Origin: Streptococcus sp. 2342
GTDB lineage: Bacteria > Bacillota > Bacilli > Lactobacillales > Streptococcaceae
Length of the DNA: 64,000 bases
Reading direction: 5' to 3'
Assembly: GCF_013276795.1 (NCBI RefSeq)
Contig: NZ_VMLR01000003.1
Location: 1 to 64,000, forward strand
In this document: in pieces, positions 53,982-64,000 of the stretch
How the letters are laid out: every line of letters starts with the position of its first letter
Position numbering within the stretch: the stretch's first letter is position 1
The notes under the pieces: model-generated
Databases searched by the model: none
Told to the model about the DNA's origin: nothing
Seen by the model: the letters and a program-made list of their open reading frames with translations, nothing else
Program-made: the position numbers and the translations under genes

Positions 53982-54073
53982 AAAATTGGAGTAGGAAATT
54001 TTTCCTGCTCTTTTCTGTAAGCAGTTTCCTTGACATTTTTCTTATTTTGCGCTATCATATATCTATATAATAT

Positions 54074-54158
<85 letters not shown>

Positions 54159-54170
54159 AGTCTATTCTTG

Positions 54171-57177: not shown

Positions 57178-58344
57178 TTAAGAACTTTTTATTTTTTCGA
57201 GGGCAGTTTCAAAGAATGAGACTGCTCTTTTTTGATTTTCTTTTGATAAATGGCTGTAAGTGTCCATAGTTACAGATATTTTTGCATGGCCAAGCCGTGT
57301 CTGTATTTCCTTGTATGGCAGGCCAGCATTAAGCAAGATACTAGCGTGAGTGTGTCGGAAAGCATGAAAGCCTAAATCAGTACAGTTAGCGTTTTTTAAG
57401 TGCTTATGTAGGCGGTAATCAACTTTTCGAGTATTGACATAGTTGTCAAAGCTATCAGAGAATACTTTCTCATAGGTTAAGCCAATGTTTCTACCGTTTT
57501 CTGCTTGTCTTGCTCGGTAGAGACGAAGCATGAGCACTGTTTTATGATCAATATCTAAAACTCTATAGCTTGATTTTGTCTTAGGAGTGTTTACCTGGTT
57601 TAAAATGTTGAGTGTTTTGTTAATATCGATCGTTCCGTTCTGCAGGTCAATATCAGACCATTCCAGGGCCAGACATTCACGGATGCGCAGTCCAGTAGCT
57701 AGGAGTGTCTTATAAAGCACGGTATCATAAAAATTGATAAAGGTATTTTCTAGGCTATCGAGATAGGAGAGGAAGTTTTTAAGTTCCTGATCTTGAAAGT
57801 ATTTAATTTCTTGTTTATCTCTGGTTATCTTTCTGGGAATGACAACATCACGAGCAGGGTTATTGTCTAATGCCTGGATAGAAACTCCATACTGTAGAAT
57901 ACGTTTATTTAAGGCATGAAGATGATTGTATTCTTTATACCCCGTTCCGTCCTGATTGTACTCATCCGCCCATTTATTTACCTGAGTTTGGATAATGACA
58001 GGTGTAAGTTTATCTAGTTTGTAAGTACCAAATGAGGGCAAGAGGTAGTTATTTAAGCAACCTTTTATCTTAATCTGCGTATTAGTCTTTACGGTATACT
58101 GGTAGGTTTGCCAAAATAAGTCCACAAGTTCGCTATAGGTTGTTATATGTGAGCGTTGTTTCCGTGTCGAGCCGTTTTTCTCAAATTCTACCTTAGCCTG
58201 GGTGGTCTTGTTTTTGAGTTCTTTCTTTGTTCGTGCTGATATGGTAGTCTTGACCTTCTTACCAGTTACAGAATCAATGCCAAGATAGATACTGGAGCGG
58301 TAGACTGCTGATCCGTCTTTTTTCGTGTGTTGTGTAATTTTCAT
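57178..58344 (-). CDS. int: phage-type tyrosine integrase
   Basis: Site-specific recombinase of 388 residues: N-terminal arm-binding domain (about 1-60), SAM-like core-binding domain (about 65-160) and catalytic domain with Arg220 (GLRIRE), His327 and Arg330 (HAFRH), His353 (LGHAKISVT) and nucleophile Tyr363 (MDTYSHL). All catalytic residues are present. Its 3' end faces the chromosomal junction, as is usual for an integrated element, so attL lies in 57017-57177. The repressor and Cro-like genes further in suggest a temperate phage or phage-like island. Confidence 0.95.
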   Translation of the reverse strand: MKITQHTKKDGSAVYRSSIYLGIDSVTGKKVKTTISARTKKELKNKTTQAKVEFEKNGSTRKQRSHITTYSELVDLFWQTYQYTVKTNTQIKIKGCLNNYLLPSFGTYKLDKLTPVIIQTQVNKWADEYNQDGTGYKEYNHLHALNKRILQYGVSIQALDNNPARDVVIPRKITRDKQEIKYFQDQELKNFLSYLDSLENTFINFYDTVLYKTLLATGLRIRECLALEWSDIDLQNGTIDINKTLNILNQVNTPKTKSSYRVLDIDHKTVLMLRLYRARQAENGRNIGLTYEKVFSDSFDNYVNTRKVDYRLHKHLKNANCTDLGFHAFRHTHASILLNAGLPYKEIQTRLGHAKISVTMDTYSHLSKENQKRAVSFFETALEKIKSS

Positions 58345-58363
58345 GGTTTACTCCTTTTCCATC

Positions 58364-58392
58364 AGCAGGCAAGCAATTAGAAAAGGTTTTGA
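58364..58392 (+). repeat. 29-bp exact direct repeat, copy 1
   Basis: Located 20 bp upstream of the integrase start. An identical 29-mer is at 63432-63460 in the same orientation; flanks differ. Role unknown. Confidence 0.85.
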
Positions 58393-58532
58393 GTTTAGAC
58401 CATGCGAGGGGCTACGAGAACCCCTTATTTTCGATTTTAAGCAGTCAGACGGTAAATTGTACCAGAATAGGAAACAAGGCGGATATGGGGCTGATATGAG
58501 GGTTTTAAAAAGCCCATATATTGCAAGTAGTT

Positions 58533-59507
58533 CTATCTTAATGTGTCAGTGATATTATACCAATTATTCGGAAATCCAAGTGTGTCCAATACAATGCCGG
58601 CTTCAATGGAGTGCGCTTTTTTATTTAGAGCTTTGGTTCTTTTAATAATAGTGTTATGTAATTGAGCGTATTGTGTGGAAGCAAGTAGGCATTGCAAGGC
58701 AAGAAAAACATAATATACAGATTGTCTTGATGTATTGGCATTGTTATTGTAATAATGGAAATAAGCTAGTTGTGGAAGATTCTCACGACATTTATAATTG
58801 AAAAGCTTATTATTATGAGCAGTGATATTTCTAATTTCTAGTATATTTTTAATAATACTTTCTAAAGCCTTTCCACTTAAAAGGTCTTTACTAGGTCTAT
58901 TTTGGATGTATTCAATATTTTCTTGTAAGAATGGTGATAAATCTCTAGCTATTTGATTTTTTATATCAGTGTTTAGATTTCTATAAAAGTTAAATGCTTG
59001 TCCTAATGTAAGTTCATTGATGATAACCCAGAAAGGAACAACGCCATGTTGTTTATAGTGGTGTTTTATAGAATTGTTTTGCTTATCCCTATTATAATCA
59101 TTGAGTATTCTAGCTAATATACTGATTAAGTTTGTAATTTGTGCGAGCCTTTTTGCATCTTTTTGTGTTTCAAAATTATTAATATCTAGATAAGAGTATG
59201 GCTTTGGATATGATTCTGAAAAACGATATGCCAGTACGGATTTAAAGTGTTTTTCTGCATCTATAATTGCTTTTAAAAAAGCTGATTTAATTTCTTTATC
59301 GTAAAAGTGTGTTGCAGCTATTTCTCTAAAGTCTGCACCAGTTATAAATTTATCTTTTGATGTTTGAAAAAATTTACTATATCCGTTGACGACGTTGTAA
59401 TAGTTGTTAGTTAGAAGGTATCTTTTACATTCTACTATGTTATCTATTTCTAAACCTCTAGACTGGAGAAGTTTTATTTGTTCATCTAATGTTTGAAATG
59501 GTTTCAT
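58533..59507 (-). CDS. Abi_2 (AbiD/AbiF) family HEPN abortive-infection protein
   Basis: 324-residue protein of the Abi_2 family of phage-resistance proteins. It has the N-terminal TLDEQIKLLQSRGLEI segment and TNNYYNVVNGYSKFF motif common in this family, and a C-terminal HEPN ribonuclease motif R226-x4-H231 (EIRNITAH). Start at 59507 after AAGGAAC. A compact RNA gene with its own promoter and terminator ends just upstream (59523-59597). Family members block phage growth, probably by RNA cleavage, and some are kept inactive by a partner RNA. That pairing is inferred here from layout. Confidence 0.88.
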   Translation of the reverse strand: MKPFQTLDEQIKLLQSRGLEIDNIVECKRYLLTNNYYNVVNGYSKFFQTSKDKFITGADFREIAATHFYDKEIKSAFLKAIIDAEKHFKSVLAYRFSESYPKPYSYLDINNFETQKDAKRLAQITNLISILARILNDYNRDKQNNSIKHHYKQHGVVPFWVIINELTLGQAFNFYRNLNTDIKNQIARDLSPFLQENIEYIQNRPSKDLLSGKALESIIKNILEIRNITAHNNKLFNYKCRENLPQLAYFHYYNNNANTSRQSVYYVFLALQCLLASTQYAQLHNTIIKRTKALNKKAHSIEAGIVLDTLGFPNNWYNITDTLR

Positions 59508-59522
59508 ATATGTTCCTTATAT

Positions 59523-59597
59523 ACAAAAACACCACCTAGTAGAACTAGGCGGTGTTTCGCGTACTCTGCTCCCTTGGGAGCAGAAACTCTTCTCATT
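59523..59597 (-). ncRNA. putative structured RNA paired with the Abi_2 gene
   Basis: About 75 nt on the minus strand. After the promoter at 59603-59631 it forms hairpin 1, CTGCTCCC/GGGAGCAG (59583-59566), and hairpin 2, a 14-bp stem with a 3-nt loop (59557-59527) ending in TTTTT, which is also the terminator. The single non-Watson-Crick position in hairpin 2 is a G-U pair on the minus strand and an A-C mismatch on the plus strand, supporting a minus-strand RNA. A GTTTC near the 5' side could pair with GAAAC between the hairpins, competing with the base of hairpin 2. It lies 16 bases before the Abi_2 start. Confidence 0.7.
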
Positions 59598-59602
59598 GCC
59601 TA

Positions 59603-59631
59603 ATAATACTGTAATTTTTAGTTTTTGTCAA
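59603..59631 (-). promoter_or_regulatory. strong promoter of the Abi_2-linked RNA
   Basis: On the minus strand: TTGACA (59631-59626), 17-bp spacer, TATTAT (59608-59603). Near-consensus sigma-A promoter. Confidence 0.85.
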
Positions 59632-59706
59632 TCTTTTTGGTTTGTTTTTTAAAAATTTTTGAGTATCGAAAAATCTCAACGCTGGGAAAGTTCGCCTTTT
59701 TTCGTC

Positions 59707-60375
59707 CTAAAACTGTCCTTTCCGTGTTGTTTCGTAGTCCAGTGATTCTTTGAAGAGGTCAGCTAGTCCAGTTACGTCTTGATTCGCGAGGAGTTCCATA
59801 TAATGCGCCCTTGAGTCTTTTGAGATGATGATAGGAGCGTTTAGATACTTCATAGCTAGGTACATGAGTAAAAGGCGCCCTGTACGGCCGTTGCCGTCGC
59901 TAAATGGGTGAATCCGTTCAATCTGGATATGGGTATCTGCTAAAATCTCTAAGATTTCTTTTTCATTCTGAGCATGATCTAAGCGATAAGCGGTATTATC
60001 AGCCCATTGCGTCATCAGGTAGGGTGTTTCTGCTGGGCTAGCCGTTTGAAATTCAGCCCCGATAATAGCATTTTGAACTTGCTTAAATTGTCCGCGATCA
60101 TGTTGCAGTCTATCCACTAATAAGGCGTGAAAATCTTGAACCAGCCCCACAGTAAGGGCTTGATGATTTGCCAATGAGTCCAAGAGATAAGAAAAGGCCT
60201 GTTTATGGTTTTCAATCTCATAAAACTCACGAATACTTTTGCCGTTGCGTGGCAAGGTGCTTTCTAAGATAATGCTGACGGTTTCGGGTAGGGAAATAGT
60301 GTTTCCTTCAATACCGCTAGAATGGTAGGCCATTCGTACCAGTATATCGTCCAGGTAGTCTTGAGCGTAGTTCAT
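59707..60375 (-). CDS. Fic-domain protein with N-terminal inhibitory motif
   Basis: 222-residue Fic protein, which typically transfers AMP from ATP to target proteins. The catalytic motif HPFSDGNGRTGR (156-167) is intact. An N-terminal SxxxEG motif (S19-E23-G24, HSSGIEGN) matches the inhibitory helix of self-restrained class II Fic enzymes, so no separate antitoxin is needed. GGAGAAAC precedes the ATG. In this cassette it may be a defence or regulatory toxin; the target is unknown. Confidence 0.92.
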   Translation of the reverse strand: MNYAQDYLDDILVRMAYHSSGIEGNTISLPETVSIILESTLPRNGKSIREFYEIENHKQAFSYLLDSLANHQALTVGLVQDFHALLVDRLQHDRGQFKQVQNAIIGAEFQTASPAETPYLMTQWADNTAYRLDHAQNEKEILEILADTHIQIERIHPFSDGNGRTGRLLLMYLAMKYLNAPIIISKDSRAHYMELLANQDVTGLADLFKESLDYETTRKGQF

Positions 60376-60466
60376 GTTTCTCCTTTCTATTTGTCAATTT
60401 TGCCGTTTTTTTTGCACTTTAGTCTGTAAAATCAGTTTTCTATTCTTCAATTTCCCCTGTTTTTGC

Positions 60467-60505
60467 ACAATAGACCTTAGAAATAGGGGCGCTATTGGCG
60501 AATAT
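60467..60505 (-). promoter_or_regulatory. two-block element upstream of fic
   Basis: On the minus strand ATATTCGCCAATA, 15 bases, AGGTCTATTGT. The same two blocks with the same spacing occur upstream of the lipoprotein gene (61121-61159). Probably a shared regulatory site. Confidence 0.55.
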
Positions 60506-60516
60506 GGGGGAGTTTT

Positions 60517-61056
60517 TTAATTTACGATGATTTCTCCAACAGGGATAAAATCTTTTTGTTTTGAAGATTTTGCGATTAAGTCGTATTGATCAGCGGATTT
60601 TTCATATCCAAGGGAAAGAGTAGTATTGTCGTCTGGTAATTTTTTAGCAAACTCAGATATAGACATCCGAAATACGGTAATTGCATTTTGCTGATTAGTT
60701 GTAGCAGAATTTGAATTGATTGCGTCCATAGTCTCTTTTGCGCTATCTTTAGCCGTTCCAGTTAGCAAAATCATGATTGTATCATGCGGTTCGGATGAGT
60801 CTGAATCGATTACGTTATTTTGAATTTTTACGCTTATTGCGCCAGTTGATTCAGGATCTAATTTTGACTTGATTTCAGAAATTAGATTGTCGTATTTACT
60901 GTTATCTACTTTGGCTTTTGTGTTTGTTGAAGTAGTGTTTTTTTGCTCCGTTTTTGCTTGTTCTGAGCTATCTTTAGTAGTTGATTGATCGTTAGAGCAA
61001 GCTACTAGAACGGTAGCAGAAAGTAAAATAGCTGATGTGCTTAGTAATTTTTTCAT
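60517..61056 (-). CDS. element-encoded lipoprotein
   Basis: 179-residue lipoprotein with signal peptide and lipobox LVAC (Cys20), a Q/T/K/S-rich linker and a globular part of about 120 residues that I do not recognise. A lipoprotein between integrase and repressor is common in streptococcal prophages; in S. thermophilus phage TP-J34 such a protein (Ltp) excludes superinfecting phages. A superinfection-exclusion role is an inference from position and type. Confidence 0.85.
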   Translation of the reverse strand: MKKLLSTSAILLSATVLVACSNDQSTTKDSSEQAKTEQKNTTSTNTKAKVDNSKYDNLISEIKSKLDPESTGAISVKIQNNVIDSDSSEPHDTIMILLTGTAKDSAKETMDAINSNSATTNQQNAITVFRMSISEFAKKLPDDNTTLSLGYEKSADQYDLIAKSSKQKDFIPVGEIIVN

Positions 61057-61120
61057 AAGTAGTCTCCTATATGCTGGTGTTTTTCTGATAAAAGATTTAG
61101 TGGGCTATCCCATCTTTTTT

Positions 61121-61159
61121 ACAATAGACCTATGGGATAGAGTATTTATTGGCGGATAT
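61121..61159 (-). promoter_or_regulatory. two-block element upstream of the lipoprotein gene
   Basis: On the minus strand ATATCCGCCAATA, 15 bases, AGGTCTATTGT. Partner of 60467-60505; the intervening bases differ while the blocks are conserved. Confidence 0.55.
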
Positions 61160-61189
61160 GGAGCTTATATAGTGATTAGCGATTTTATA

Positions 61190-61828
61190 TTAGTCATCAT
61201 AATCTTTATGAAGAACAGGATTATCGGCTAATGAGGAAATTATTGTACTAATAGCTTCCCTTTCTTTCTTGTCTAGTGTTAAAAAATCAATAATAGTAAT
61301 TTTAGTCTTATCAGGAAAGGTCATTAGACCTGCAAGAAATCTTCCGATATTTGAATCAGCATAGTCTTGCATTCCTTTTAACATAAGATCTTTTTTTTCT
61401 TGACTCCAATTTTTAAATTCTTCTTTAGCACATCTTCTATGTCCATAATAGTCTGTGATTTCTCTAAGGTTTTCTATTACGGTATCCCTTACTTTTTCAC
61501 CACGAGTTAGCGCCAACAAACCATATCCTGCGAAATCTACTGGGGATTCCATGTTATCACTATATTTCTCTAGAGTAGAGGTTAGGTAGGTTGTTCTTCT
61601 TTCGTCTTCCCCTAAAAGATATCCAACATTTACCCCGAAATATTCTGCAAGTAGTAGAGCAGGTTTTGATTTGATTTCATTATTTGGATTTTCCCAATTT
61701 TGATAAGTTCGTAAAGTAATATTCAAACCTAGTTCTTTTTTTATAATATCTTCGTAAAATTCTTTTTGGGAGAATCCTTTTTCTATTCTAAGTTTTTTTA
61801 GATTATTTTTAGGTGTTTGTTTTTCCAT
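61190..61828 (-). CDS. CI-like repressor (XRE family)
   Basis: 212-residue regulator with an N-terminal helix-turn-helix (about 8-60, LKKLRIEKGFSQKEFYEDII, TYQNWENP) and a C-terminal region without an evident LexA-type Ser-Lys protease site. It is divergent from a Cro-like gene, with three matching 16-bp operator-like sites between them, so it probably keeps the element silent. The lack of a self-cleavage domain suggests induction by another route, such as an antirepressor. Confidence 0.9.
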   Translation of the reverse strand: MEKQTPKNNLKKLRIEKGFSQKEFYEDIIKKELGLNITLRTYQNWENPNNEIKSKPALLLAEYFGVNVGYLLGEDERRTTYLTSTLEKYSDNMESPVDFAGYGLLALTRGEKVRDTVIENLREITDYYGHRRCAKEEFKNWSQEKKDLMLKGMQDYADSNIGRFLAGLMTFPDKTKITIIDFLTLDKKEREAISTIISSLADNPVLHKDYDD

Positions 61829-61855
61829 TAGTTATCCTCTTATACGTTTATCTAA

Positions 61856-61861
61856 AGTATA
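61856..61861 (-). promoter_or_regulatory. repressor promoter -10
   Basis: TGTTATACT on the minus strand, an extended -10, 28 bases before the repressor start. The -35 is weak. Confidence 0.65.
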
Positions 61862-61891
61862 ACATAGTAGAGAGAAAAAATAAAATCATAG

Positions 61892-61907
61892 ACGAAAAAA
61901 ATTTCAT
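61892..61907. promoter_or_regulatory. operator-like site O1
   Basis: ACGAAAAAAATTTCAT; first of three related imperfect 16-bp palindromes (AYGAAA...TTCRT) between the repressor and Cro-like genes. Confidence 0.7.
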
Positions 61908-61914
61908 TTATCGC

Positions 61915-61943
61915 TTGACAACGAAAATAAATTCGTTTATAAT
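61915..61943 (+). promoter_or_regulatory. early promoter and operator-like site O2
   Basis: Consensus promoter TTGACA (61915-61920), 17 bp, TATAAT (61938-61943). The spacer holds O2, ACGAAAATAAATTCGT (61921-61936), so bound repressor would block RNA polymerase. Confidence 0.85.
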
Positions 61944-61953
61944 TCAAAGTGTG

Positions 61954-61969
61954 ATGAAAAAACTTTCGT
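61954..61969. promoter_or_regulatory. operator-like site O3
   Basis: ATGAAAAAACTTTCGT, just past the early transcription start. Confidence 0.7.
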
Positions 61970-62005
61970 CCAAATCAAGATTTTTTAGAAAGGAGTGAGT
62001 TGATA

Positions 62006-62194
62006 ATGTTATTAACAATAGAACATGCAAAAAAAGTTCGTCGAAAACGAGGGGAGCTTCAGCTTGGAAAAGTTCAGTTAGCCAAGAAACTAAAAATTAC
62101 ACCTCCTACTCTAGCAAAAATTGAAGCTGGCAACTACGATGCACCTAAGCGCATTTACGAAAGTGTGATAGAGTGGCTTTTAGAAGATTATTAG
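62006..62194 (+). CDS. Cro-like XRE DNA-binding protein
   Basis: Small helix-turn-helix protein of 62 residues from the ATG at 62006 (MLLTIEHAKKVRRKRGEL), with a clear XRE fold (LGKVQLAKKLKITPPTLAKIEAG). A TTG at 62000 also has AGGAG at short spacing and would give 64 residues. It is the first gene from the early promoter and divergent from the repressor, so a Cro role is likely. Confidence 0.85.
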   Translation: MLLTIEHAKKVRRKRGELQLGKVQLAKKLKITPPTLAKIEAGNYDAPKRIYESVIEWLLEDY

Positions 62195-62208
62195 AAAGGA
62201 GCGAACCA

Positions 62209-62268
62209 ATCGCAATACTACTCTACGTTTACAGATTTCTCATGTGGTGCTTTACCACTGGGGATTGA
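62209..62268 (+). CDS. possible 19-codon peptide with an AUC start
   Basis: AAAGGAG (62195-62201) lies seven bases before ATC, which opens a frame of 19 codons reading (M)AILLYVYRFLMWCFTTGD, a hydrophobic aromatic peptide, then TGA. No ATG, GTG or TTG is at the proper distance; the internal ATG lacks a ribosome site. It may be a real small membrane peptide using a rare start, or a decayed one. Confidence 0.3.
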   Translation: MAILLYVYRFLMWCFTTGD

Positions 62269-62303
62269 TAAACGGATCTAGCTAAATTTTTACTAGACTA
62301 CTT

Positions 62304-62398
62304 TGCTTGCTACCTATGGCAGTATCAAGGGTTTGTAGGGGGTGACTCCTTTCTCCCTAGAAAGTTCTTCCCCTTGGTACTGTTTTAGGTGGTAAGCA
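62304..62398 (+). ncRNA. long structured RNA hairpin upstream of rha
   Basis: 62304-62331 pairs with 62371-62398 over 28 positions with one U-U mismatch. All other non-Watson-Crick positions are G-U pairs on the plus strand, which would be A-C mismatches on the minus strand. A further small stem, 62336-62342 with 62353-62359, lies in the apical part. No T tract follows, so it is not a standard terminator. It may be a leader element of the rha transcript or a processed RNA. Confidence 0.7.
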
Positions 62399-62426
62399 TT
62401 GACAAAAATAAGAAAGGAGTGGACCG

Positions 62427-63032
62427 ATGGAATTGGTTTACATGGACGGCAAGAAAGAGCCGTATACTACGAGCGAGATTATCGCTGAATGTGCTGAAGT
62501 ACAGCACCATACTATTACACGCTTAGTCAGAGACAATAAAGCTGATTTTGAAGCGTTGGGAATACTTGGATTTAAAATCCATAAATTAGATAAGAGAGGG
62601 CAACCGAAAAAAATCTATCTTCTGAATGAACAACAAGCAACATTGCTGATCACTTACTTACGAAATACAGACCCCGTAAAAGAGTTTAAGAAGAACCTAG
62701 TCAAAGCCTTTTTTGAAATGCGTAATGAACTTTCTAAACGCTATCTTCAAAGAGAACTGGAAAAGCCAAAGCGTAAAAGCTTAACTGAAGCTATTCAAAC
62801 ATGGGAGAAAGCCCCCAAGCATGCCTATAGTACTCTTACAAACTTACTACTAAAGGGAGTGACAGGGAAGAATAAAGCGCAACTCATGAAGGAGCGAGAA
62901 AGTAAGAACGGCATTGATGGCTTGACAAGTGCAGAACTGACAAACTACCAACGTTTGGAAGATATGGCAATAGCTATGATTAACTTGAATAGGGGGTATT
63001 CAGAAATTAAGGAATTAATTTTTAAAGTATAG
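62427..63032 (+). CDS. Rha-family phage regulatory protein
   Basis: 201-residue protein with an N-terminal pRha domain (about 8-100: YTTSEIIAECAEVQHHTITRLVRDN, later YLLNEQQATLLITYLRNTDPVKEFKKNLVKAFFEMR) and a C-terminal region of its own. Rha proteins are phage-encoded and interfere with growth of phages in some hosts. AAAGGAG precedes the ATG. Preceded by the long hairpin. Confidence 0.88.
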   Translation: MELVYMDGKKEPYTTSEIIAECAEVQHHTITRLVRDNKADFEALGILGFKIHKLDKRGQPKKIYLLNEQQATLLITYLRNTDPVKEFKKNLVKAFFEMRNELSKRYLQRELEKPKRKSLTEAIQTWEKAPKHAYSTLTNLLLKGVTGKNKAQLMKERESKNGIDGLTSAELTNYQRLEDMAIAMINLNRGYSEIKELIFKV

Positions 63033-63043
63033 GAGTATAGAAA

Positions 63044-63304
63044 ATGGAAAATGATTTTAAGACAGTTACAAATGCCAAGGGGTTAGAAATTCCTAAGTAT
63101 CCCAAGGATTTTAAAAAGCTAGTTGAGAAAGACAGACAACTAGCCGAATATCTTTGTATGAACTACGAGAACTTGGACAGTGAAGACCTGGGCGCATTTC
63201 TTGAAACAGTAGAACAGGGAATCAGTTGGATTCTAGATCTTATCGAAAGTAAAGACTTGCTTTATAAACCAAAGTCAGGTAGTAATCATGCAAAAAGAAA
63301 ATAA
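63044..63304 (+). CDS. small early protein of unknown function
   Basis: 86-residue acidic protein (MENDFKTVTNAKGLEIPKYP), 11 bases after rha with AGGAG at the proper distance. No motif recognised. Position suggests an early phage gene. Confidence 0.75.
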   Translation: MENDFKTVTNAKGLEIPKYPKDFKKLVEKDRQLAEYLCMNYENLDSEDLGAFLETVEQGISWILDLIESKDLLYKPKSGSNHAKRK

Positions 63305-63628
63305 AAAAATCACTTGCTCAAATTTTGGCCAAGGCGAGCAAGCGACACAATTCAGAGTATAGAAATTTTTTCTATGCTTTGATTATAGCAAAAAATATCT
63401 ATTTTATCAAATACCTAAAGAAAAACCGAAGAGCAGGCAAGCAATTAGAAAAGGTTTTGAAATCAAGCGCTGACAGGGTGATTCTAAGGCCTTGTTTAGC
63501 TGAAATGTGGGTGATTACCCACGAAACATCACTACAAGCGTTCGCCAACTTGGGGCAATCGCTCAGCGTTTGGAGTGGTGAAGTATACCATATAGAAAAC
63601 AGGTAGGAAAAAGGACAAGGAAAGACTA
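63305..63628. other. probable non-coding stretch with hairpins and a direct repeat
   Basis: A TTG-started frame covers most of this stretch but has no ribosome site and atypical composition. Visible structure: hairpin 63356-63378 (10-bp arms, one G-U), perfect hairpin GTGGGT-GATT-ACCCAC (63507-63522), and the 29-bp repeat shared with the integrase upstream region. Confidence 0.5.
63432..63460 (+). repeat. 29-bp exact direct repeat, copy 2
   Basis: Identical to 58364-58392, about 5.1 kb apart. Confidence 0.85.
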
Positions 63629-63841
63629 ATGGAGAAAAATATGACTCTAGACCTAGATAACATGACACGATCAGAATTTGATAAGCTAATGACTAAAATC
63701 AAGGATAGAAATCCGAACCTATTTCAGTTCATCATTGACTTTTTAGATGATAAAGTAACTCCAGAAGAGGTGTACGACTTTCTGAAGATGGAGCGAAGCT
63801 ATCAAGTAAATTATATCAAGAATTACAAAGCGAGGGCATAG
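63629..63841 (+). CDS. small early protein of unknown function
   Basis: 70-residue protein, mostly helical and charged (MTRSEFDKLMTKIKDRNPNLF). The start at 63629 or the ATG 12 bases later could be used. No family recognised. Confidence 0.65.
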   Translation: MEKNMTLDLDNMTRSEFDKLMTKIKDRNPNLFQFIIDFLDDKVTPEEVYDFLKMERSYQVNYIKNYKARA

Positions 63842-63842
63842 C

Positions 63843-64000
63843 ATGAATGAACTAGATTTAAGCAATACACAGGCGATTATTTTTACCGTGATTTTGATTG
63901 GCTTTCTCATTTACCTGAACCATCGAGACCGCAAAAAAAGCGCCCAAATCGAGCGAGAAAGTACACAGACGATAGAAACAACTAGCGAGGATTTAAGCCC
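63843..64000 (+). CDS. small membrane protein, cut by the window end
   Basis: At least 52 residues: MNELDLSNTQAIIF, one membrane segment (about 11-25), then a charged cytoplasmic part. The ORF is open at 64000. One base after the previous gene. Function unknown. Confidence 0.65.
   Translation, partial: MNELDLSNTQAIIFTVILIGFLIYLNHRDRKKSAQIERESTQTIETTSEDLS

Follow-up and report, generated by a model that had tools for sequence, protein, structure and literature searches.

In Clostridioides difficile, AbiFCd and RCd22 form an RNA-antitoxin pair, in which the RNA terminates in cis and binds the toxin in trans; the R-x4-H motif is required for the toxicity of AbiFCd (PMC12373285). RCd22 and AbiFr, the RNA partner of PbAbiF, are both described as acting on their protein (PMC12373285, PMC12737573). 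For abiD1 of Lactococcus lactis, the main transcript is reported to be 50 nt long and to end at a terminator 5' of the gene, the long mRNA being rare. The phage protein Orf1 boosts translation of abiD1, removal of the terminator from an abiD1 translational fusion had no positive effect, and the authors assign the terminator no major part (PMC2661086). Pairs of AbiD/F proteins and RNA are viewed as the stock that gave rise to Cas13 (PMC12165695, PMC12737573), and covariance models for AbiF have been built by Zilberzwige-Tal et al. (PMC12804078). Systems of Streptococcus thermophilus that include AbiD conferred low-to-moderate resistance in a study cited by PMC12322248, in which AbiD is listed as narrow. 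At least 16 S. thermophilus satellites are described as having a probable resistance system, e.g., restriction-modification or abortive infection (PMC13376191).

Here we compare these systems with a locus found in a stretch of 64,000 nucleotides of streptococcal DNA, referred to as the window, the features of which are collected in Table 1. In our view this locus is probably of the AbiD/AbiF kind, a type III-like toxin-antitoxin unit that uses attenuation and is carried by a phage satellite. The kind of system is already known from RCd22 and abiD1, and what is new is the RNA class, as judged by its absence from Rfam 15. Our searches of the open-licence literature turned up no description of an RNA that partners the satellite gene of streptococci.

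Table 1. Features of the unit and of the element that carries it, in window coordinates.
Feature	Position	Strand	Remarks
Sigma-70-type promoter, TTGACA-17-TATTAT	59603..59631	-	11/12 consensus matches
Candidate antitoxin RNA, about 72-76 nt, 5' end placed from the promoter	59525..59600	-	fold -38.3 kcal/mol
Class A core: GAG..AG, 8-bp hairpin 1, UACGC-like tail	59555..59594	-	covariation and held-out model
Hairpin 1	59584-59565, loop 59576-59573	-	inside class A core
Hairpin 2 and T5 (59529-59525), presumed intrinsic terminator	59525..59558	-	15-bp stem in fold
Shine-Dalgarno UAAGGA, 6 nt 5' of ATG, outside terminator	59514..59519	-	
Abi_2 / AbiD-AbiF HEPN gene, 324 aa, presumed RNase toxin, ATG at 59507	58533..59507	-	
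R226...H231 codons (HEPN R-x4-H)	58815..58832	-	11-row alignment
Satellite phage, left part	57178..64000, continuing to contig position ~69275	.	DNA match to Javan322
Integrase	57178-58344	-	satellite phage

The locus resembles AbiFCd/RCd22 in its order, since there too an Abi_2 toxin on a phage element follows a sigma-A promoter, a short structured RNA and a terminator (PMC12373285). RCd22, however, has two abiF motifs and a match to RF03085, whereas the RNA of the window has one copy and no match; AbiFCd belongs to a lysis module, whereas the window unit adjoins an integrase; and the two proteins share approximately 25% identity (phiC2). With L. lactis AbiD1, according to its published description, the unit shares a promoter, an Abi_2-type HEPN protein and, as predicted for the window, a short terminated transcript (50 nt in abiD1) and a rare read-through mRNA, but the short RNA of abiD1 was not assayed as an antitoxin in that description and Orf1 activates translation (PMC2661086). 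Lactococcus records were absent among 40 of 79 and 60 of 139 plasmid matches listed. The satellite phage Javan322 (MK448428) has the same gene (100% protein identity) and an identical 261-base RNA region; there, however, the protein is annotated as hypothetical and the RNA is unannotated.

The first-pass annotation had assigned the gene to the Abi_2 family and had pointed out a HEPN R-x4-H motif, an assignment that is borne out by a match of the 324-aa ORF to Pfam Abi_2 (PF07751) at E 1.9e-36 (126.5 bits vs. a curated cut-off of 25.6). PADLOC identifies the protein as AbiD (3.4e-50) and PHROG as "abortive infection resistance protein" (9.3e-69), and a search of NCBIfam yielded no match at 1e-3. 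Across 11 aligned sequences R226 does not vary and H231 hardly does, L011 having Y in its place. The AlphaFold2 model obtained with this 11-row alignment (pLDDT 86.9, pTM 0.85) has its best fold match in PDB entry 8vz6, the PbAbiF dimer with its non-coding RNA, at Z 22.0 over 275 residues; this comparison covers the protein alone, and the sequence identity in the fold alignment is 20%. The same entry is the top PDB match by sequence (E 3.8e-7). Judged from its family, the protein is presumed to be an RNase toxin of the AbiD/AbiF HEPN kind.

Upstream of the gene, the near-consensus promoter on the minus strand and the two strong hairpins recorded earlier are both present. The region 59600-59525 on the minus strand folds into two hairpins with a z-score of -6.9, and none of 200 shuffled sequences folds equally low; its plus strand folds less strongly (-31.0 kcal/mol, z -5.5). 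As had been claimed, the single irregular pair of hairpin 2 reads G-U on the minus strand, whereas the plus strand has a mismatch there. By sequence and fold, the RNA gene sits immediately 5' of the toxin gene with the terminator hairpin in between, and the gap from the T5 run to the ATG, previously given as 16 bases, amounts to 17. A simple terminator scan left hairpin 2 unflagged, we think because the U-run was partly counted as stem.

RF03085 (abiF RNA) has no match on window positions 59450-59710 at E <= 10 (Rfam 15), and at its gathering score it detects one of 20 homologue loci (phiC2) and misses the other 19; by eye, these loci show a promoter and a hairpin at the same place. Seven Rfam matches obtained on 59450-59710 at E <= 10 were set aside as chance resemblance, all of them lying far below gathering, including the best by E-value, RNAI, with 20.4 bits vs. 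a gathering score of 47.

The RNA can be compared with its own relatives. We designate as class A the RNA of the window together with those of L050, L026, L027, L101, L102 and L103, in which a core of 40 nt aligns free of gaps and consists of GAG..AG, an 8-bp stem, a YNNG-type tetraloop and a tail that reads UACGC or close to it in most members. Across nine distinct aligned cores, 97.2% of 72 cells of hairpin 1 are paired, and all eight pairs show changes on both sides, a number reached by two of 500 shuffles. The covariation score is 0.90, as compared with 0.38 in shuffled and at most 0.25 in slid alignments, RNAalifold recovers the stem unaided, and in this alignment additional pair types are no more numerous than in shuffles (189 of 500). 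These sequence comparisons identify hairpin 1 as an evolved RNA element.

A held-out model, R2, was built from six class A cores from outside the satellite group of the window. It ranks the window core first in the 64 kb on both strands, with an E-value of 4.3e-6 and 32.3 bits, the next match reaching 13.5 bits. This search also finds a single RNA core in the window, and the tandem repeats of classical type III systems were not encountered. Across 279 Streptococcus genomes the full class A model produced nine matches, all of them at a distance of 47-53 nt upstream of an Abi_2 start; since these are seeds or near-copies, their value lies in the absence of matches elsewhere at that threshold in the 279 genomes. 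The first-pass annotation had made its reading dependent on conservation or covariation of the RNA beside Abi_2 homologues, and both the covarying pairs of hairpin 1 and the nine matches adjoining Abi_2 genes answer to this.

When viral contigs were scanned for the RNA pattern without regard to proteins, 12 stretches were returned, of which three precede an Abi_2 start and nine do not. The former have 7 or 8 of 8 pairs, one of them being a deletion remnant, and one of the latter had 7/8 pairs; the scan of these contigs yielded no class A RNA beyond the contigs already found via protein homologues. One viral contig (L111, from position 2501 on, the same contig as L133) retains the class A RNA and has lost the toxin gene through a deletion of approximately 950 bp past the first codons of the toxin, relative to L101. 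Within the satellite group, stem pair 5 is C-A in four of seven haplotypes, U-A in two and C-G in one, that of the window. Most retrieved copies of the satellite RNA thus have a C-A mismatch at this pair, which counts against a strict need for it.

The covariation, the held-out model, the restriction of the matches to Abi_2 genes in the 279 genomes, the fold match to PbAbiF with its RNA and the published case of RCd22 lead us to regard the RNA as a partner that acts as antitoxin to the Abi_2/HEPN protein, a reading that is well supported by comparison. The first-pass annotation had proposed an antitoxin or a guide-like partner; the former proposal stands on this evidence, while the latter is unsupported, no spacer being visible by eye between promoter and core in class A members. 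Promoter sequence, structure and conservation of the RNA, neighbourhood, protein family and fold are directly supported, and transcript, termination, binding, neutralisation, RNase toxicity and trigger are modelled here on the relatives. Accordingly phrased in the conditional, one promoter would mostly give rise to an RNA of approximately 72-76 nt that ends at hairpin 2, and hairpin 1 with the GAG..AG and UACGC motifs would bind and block the HEPN ribonuclease. Rare read-through of hairpin 2 would yield the longer mRNA and hence the toxin, so that the RNA would stay in excess over the protein. An infecting phage, or the satellite being lost, might shift the ratio of RNA to protein and free toxin dimers, which would cut RNA and stop growth, and this arrest could protect the population, the satellite, or both. 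By analogy with abiD1, an Orf1-like trigger is a fair guess for the window unit.

The position of hairpin 2 and T5 between promoter and gene would also suit an RNA that works solely in cis, as a terminator or riboswitch-like mRNA leader, and never contacts the protein. This corresponds to the interpretation given to abiD1 leaders in 2009 (PMC2661086). We consider it unlikely here, as the covariation and the conserved flanks lie in hairpin 1, which is dispensable for termination, and as the related RNAs RCd22 and AbiFr target the protein (PMC12373285, PMC12737573). That base pairing of the RNA steers the HEPN protein to phage RNA, in the manner of Cas13, appears very improbable. AbiD/F proteins are kin to the HEPN domains of Cas13 (PMC12165695) and entries for Cas13 come next after PbAbiF among the fold matches, but they do so at Z 7.8 and lower, which is unconvincing by itself because helical folds reach such values by chance. 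In class A cores, moreover, no spacer-like variable part was seen, the stretch between promoter and core comprising by eye some 7-9 variable bases and no spacer, and no regular repeat array is present among 20 of 24 repeat families listed at 56.5-64 kb. A leader peptide, encoded by a 30-codon ORF that begins in the RNA and whose stop overlaps the abi start codon so as to couple translation, is scarcely credible and was rejected, for although the frame is open in 7/7 satellite haplotypes, a similar ORF occurs in 0/6 other class A members, 5/8 differences among the haplotypes alter the amino acid, and its ATG, which no Shine-Dalgarno sequence precedes, would be only a few bases away from where the transcript begins.

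The antitoxin reading can be placed in a wider survey of Abi_2 genes. Homologues were drawn from genome contigs (13/34 pattern matches confirmed), viral contigs (5/19 in the first query, plus further queries) and phages (56 records), and whole-genome searches found them in 85/284 Streptococcus genomes at E <= 1e-3 and, at E <= 1e-15, in 47/395 genomes of the order and 25/398 of the class. After removal of 15 of the 104 upstream regions as duplicates or as shorter than 200 nt, 89 were compared; L067, whose match begins at residue 54, was omitted. At a distance of 40-190 nt from the start, 75/89 Abi_2 upstreams have a promoter with at least 9/12 consensus matches, as compared with 56/242 other ORFs of the same loci; for at least 11/12 matches the figures are 45/89 vs. 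5/242. The mean folding energy per base after the promoter is -0.31 in the 75 Abi_2 regions and -0.15 in the 56 others. Fourteen of the 89 fail the promoter rule, and five of these (L056, L057, L070, L072 and L084) still have hairpins and a U-run.

By eye, 11 homologues (label H) lack such an upstream RNA, namely L066 and ten of one family of the class (L083, L087-L095), and two of the 11, L089 and L090, do satisfy the promoter rule. The ten group together as a clade in which no upstream RNA can be recognised, and their toxins may be controlled in some other way. A second Abi_2 gene of the genome to which the window belongs (L126, G000:C5:13800-16200, gene at 976) is distant, with 27% identity; by eye, it too is preceded by a promoter-like site, followed by a hairpin and U-run of a different type. 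In two loci the streptococcal Rfam sRNAs Srn266 and Spy779816 are found just beyond abi, on the other strand (L029:2457-2533 (-) and L032:2492-2575 (-)).

Class B, a second architecture among the homologues, consists of an outer helix, an internal loop, a 3-bp inner helix, a UACG-type loop and a tail resembling GCGGAAA or GCGCAAA. In 18 rows, 97.2% of 180 cells are paired as opposed to 36-41% in slid registers, and 30 cells are changed on both sides vs. 9.9 when shuffled; the pairs with changes on both sides (5) and the pair types (14) do not beat the shuffles (304 and 411 of 500) in these rows. The class B model, R3, has five matches in 279 Streptococcus genomes, all before Abi_2; three of these are seeds and the other two nearly copy one. 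On 66 homologue loci it gives 32 matches in 28 loci, all upstream of the gene on the same strand in locus coordinates. There it recovers 17/18 seeds, 15 matches are non-seed, and it misses its own seed L009 as well as L012 and L028, which had been assigned to class B by eye. Applied to the window region, R3 aligns in register with the class A core at 4.2 bits (E 0.71), a hint that classes A and B may share an ancestor.

Besides class A, other homologues in Bacilli appear to bear several further RNA classes, class B included, that track the protein tree, and in further homologues the hairpin itself seems, by eye, to act as the terminator. On a tree of 81 proteins the RNA class labels require 11 changes, the minimum being 8 and the shuffled mean 48.3, with labels set by eye, near-copies aiding the clustering, and L102, L009, L078, L013 and L096 left out as too short. 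Class A occupies one side of a branch with a support of 98. Linked inheritance alone would yield such clustering, and the tree therefore speaks for long-term pairing and not for specificity. With RNA classes that track the protein tree, changes in antitoxin specificity and the portion of the RNA responsible for inhibition become open to test.

Two tandem RNA copies precede a single Abi_2 gene in five loci (L104:2289-2443, L006:2811-2951, L008:2795-2946, L011:2572-2945 and L082). In four of these (L104, L006, L008 and L082) both copies have a terminator-like hairpin or U-run of their own behind them, and a separate promoter precedes the second copy.

In 16/89 upstreams (L028-L035, L051-L055, L062, L065 and L097), all of class B but L097, the likely start codon, assigned by homology only, is a UUG whose U's come from the terminator U-tract, with a Shine-Dalgarno-like stretch in the 3' arm of the hairpin; rows L101-L104 were not used, being placed off start codons. 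A strict scripted count finds a paired Shine-Dalgarno in 7 of these rows; read row by row, all 16 show a match of at least 4 bases, at least 4 of them paired. The toxin thus seems, from sequence and homology, to start at a UUG within the terminator U-tract in these 16 homologues. Our confidence is evenly divided on a broader picture, in which class A would be a separate architecture of AbiD/F antitoxin RNA (a single 8-bp hairpin, a YNNG-type loop and a UACGC-like tail), one of several classes that diverged with their toxins and are possibly mutually orthogonal, and in which the class B terminator would hide the Shine-Dalgarno sequence and its U-tract provide the UUG start, one hairpin serving as transcription stop, translation lock and antitoxin end.

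The element that carries the window unit had been called a prophage, a term that has to be replaced by satellite phage, as it is not a full prophage. It comprises an integrase, regulators and replication genes, and its DNA matches the named satellite Javan322 over 3.9 kb at 97.9% and over 7.1 kb at 95.8%, these two pieces being separated by approximately 1.07 kb that does not match. For its end repeats, the best candidate is 12 nt long (57169 and 69587), too short to be sure. The eight phage records that have the gene at >=95% identity are all Streptococcus satellites; carriers of near-identical genes include S. mitis, S. pseudopneumoniae and S. shenyangsis. Satellites of S. mitis and S. pneumoniae also bear the unit, and toxins held by RNA on such satellites could shape the conflict with helper phages.

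Within the satellite, an exact direct repeat of 29 nt occurs at 58364-58392, between the abi and integrase genes, and at 63432-63460. A Fic-domain gene (59707-60375, minus strand; PADLOC candidate PDC-S04, E 4e-113) lies directly upstream of the unit, and the two are possibly adjacent defence genes. Elsewhere in the window, a TPP riboswitch at 54064-54166 on the plus strand scores 55.2 bits, barely over its gathering score of 54.3.
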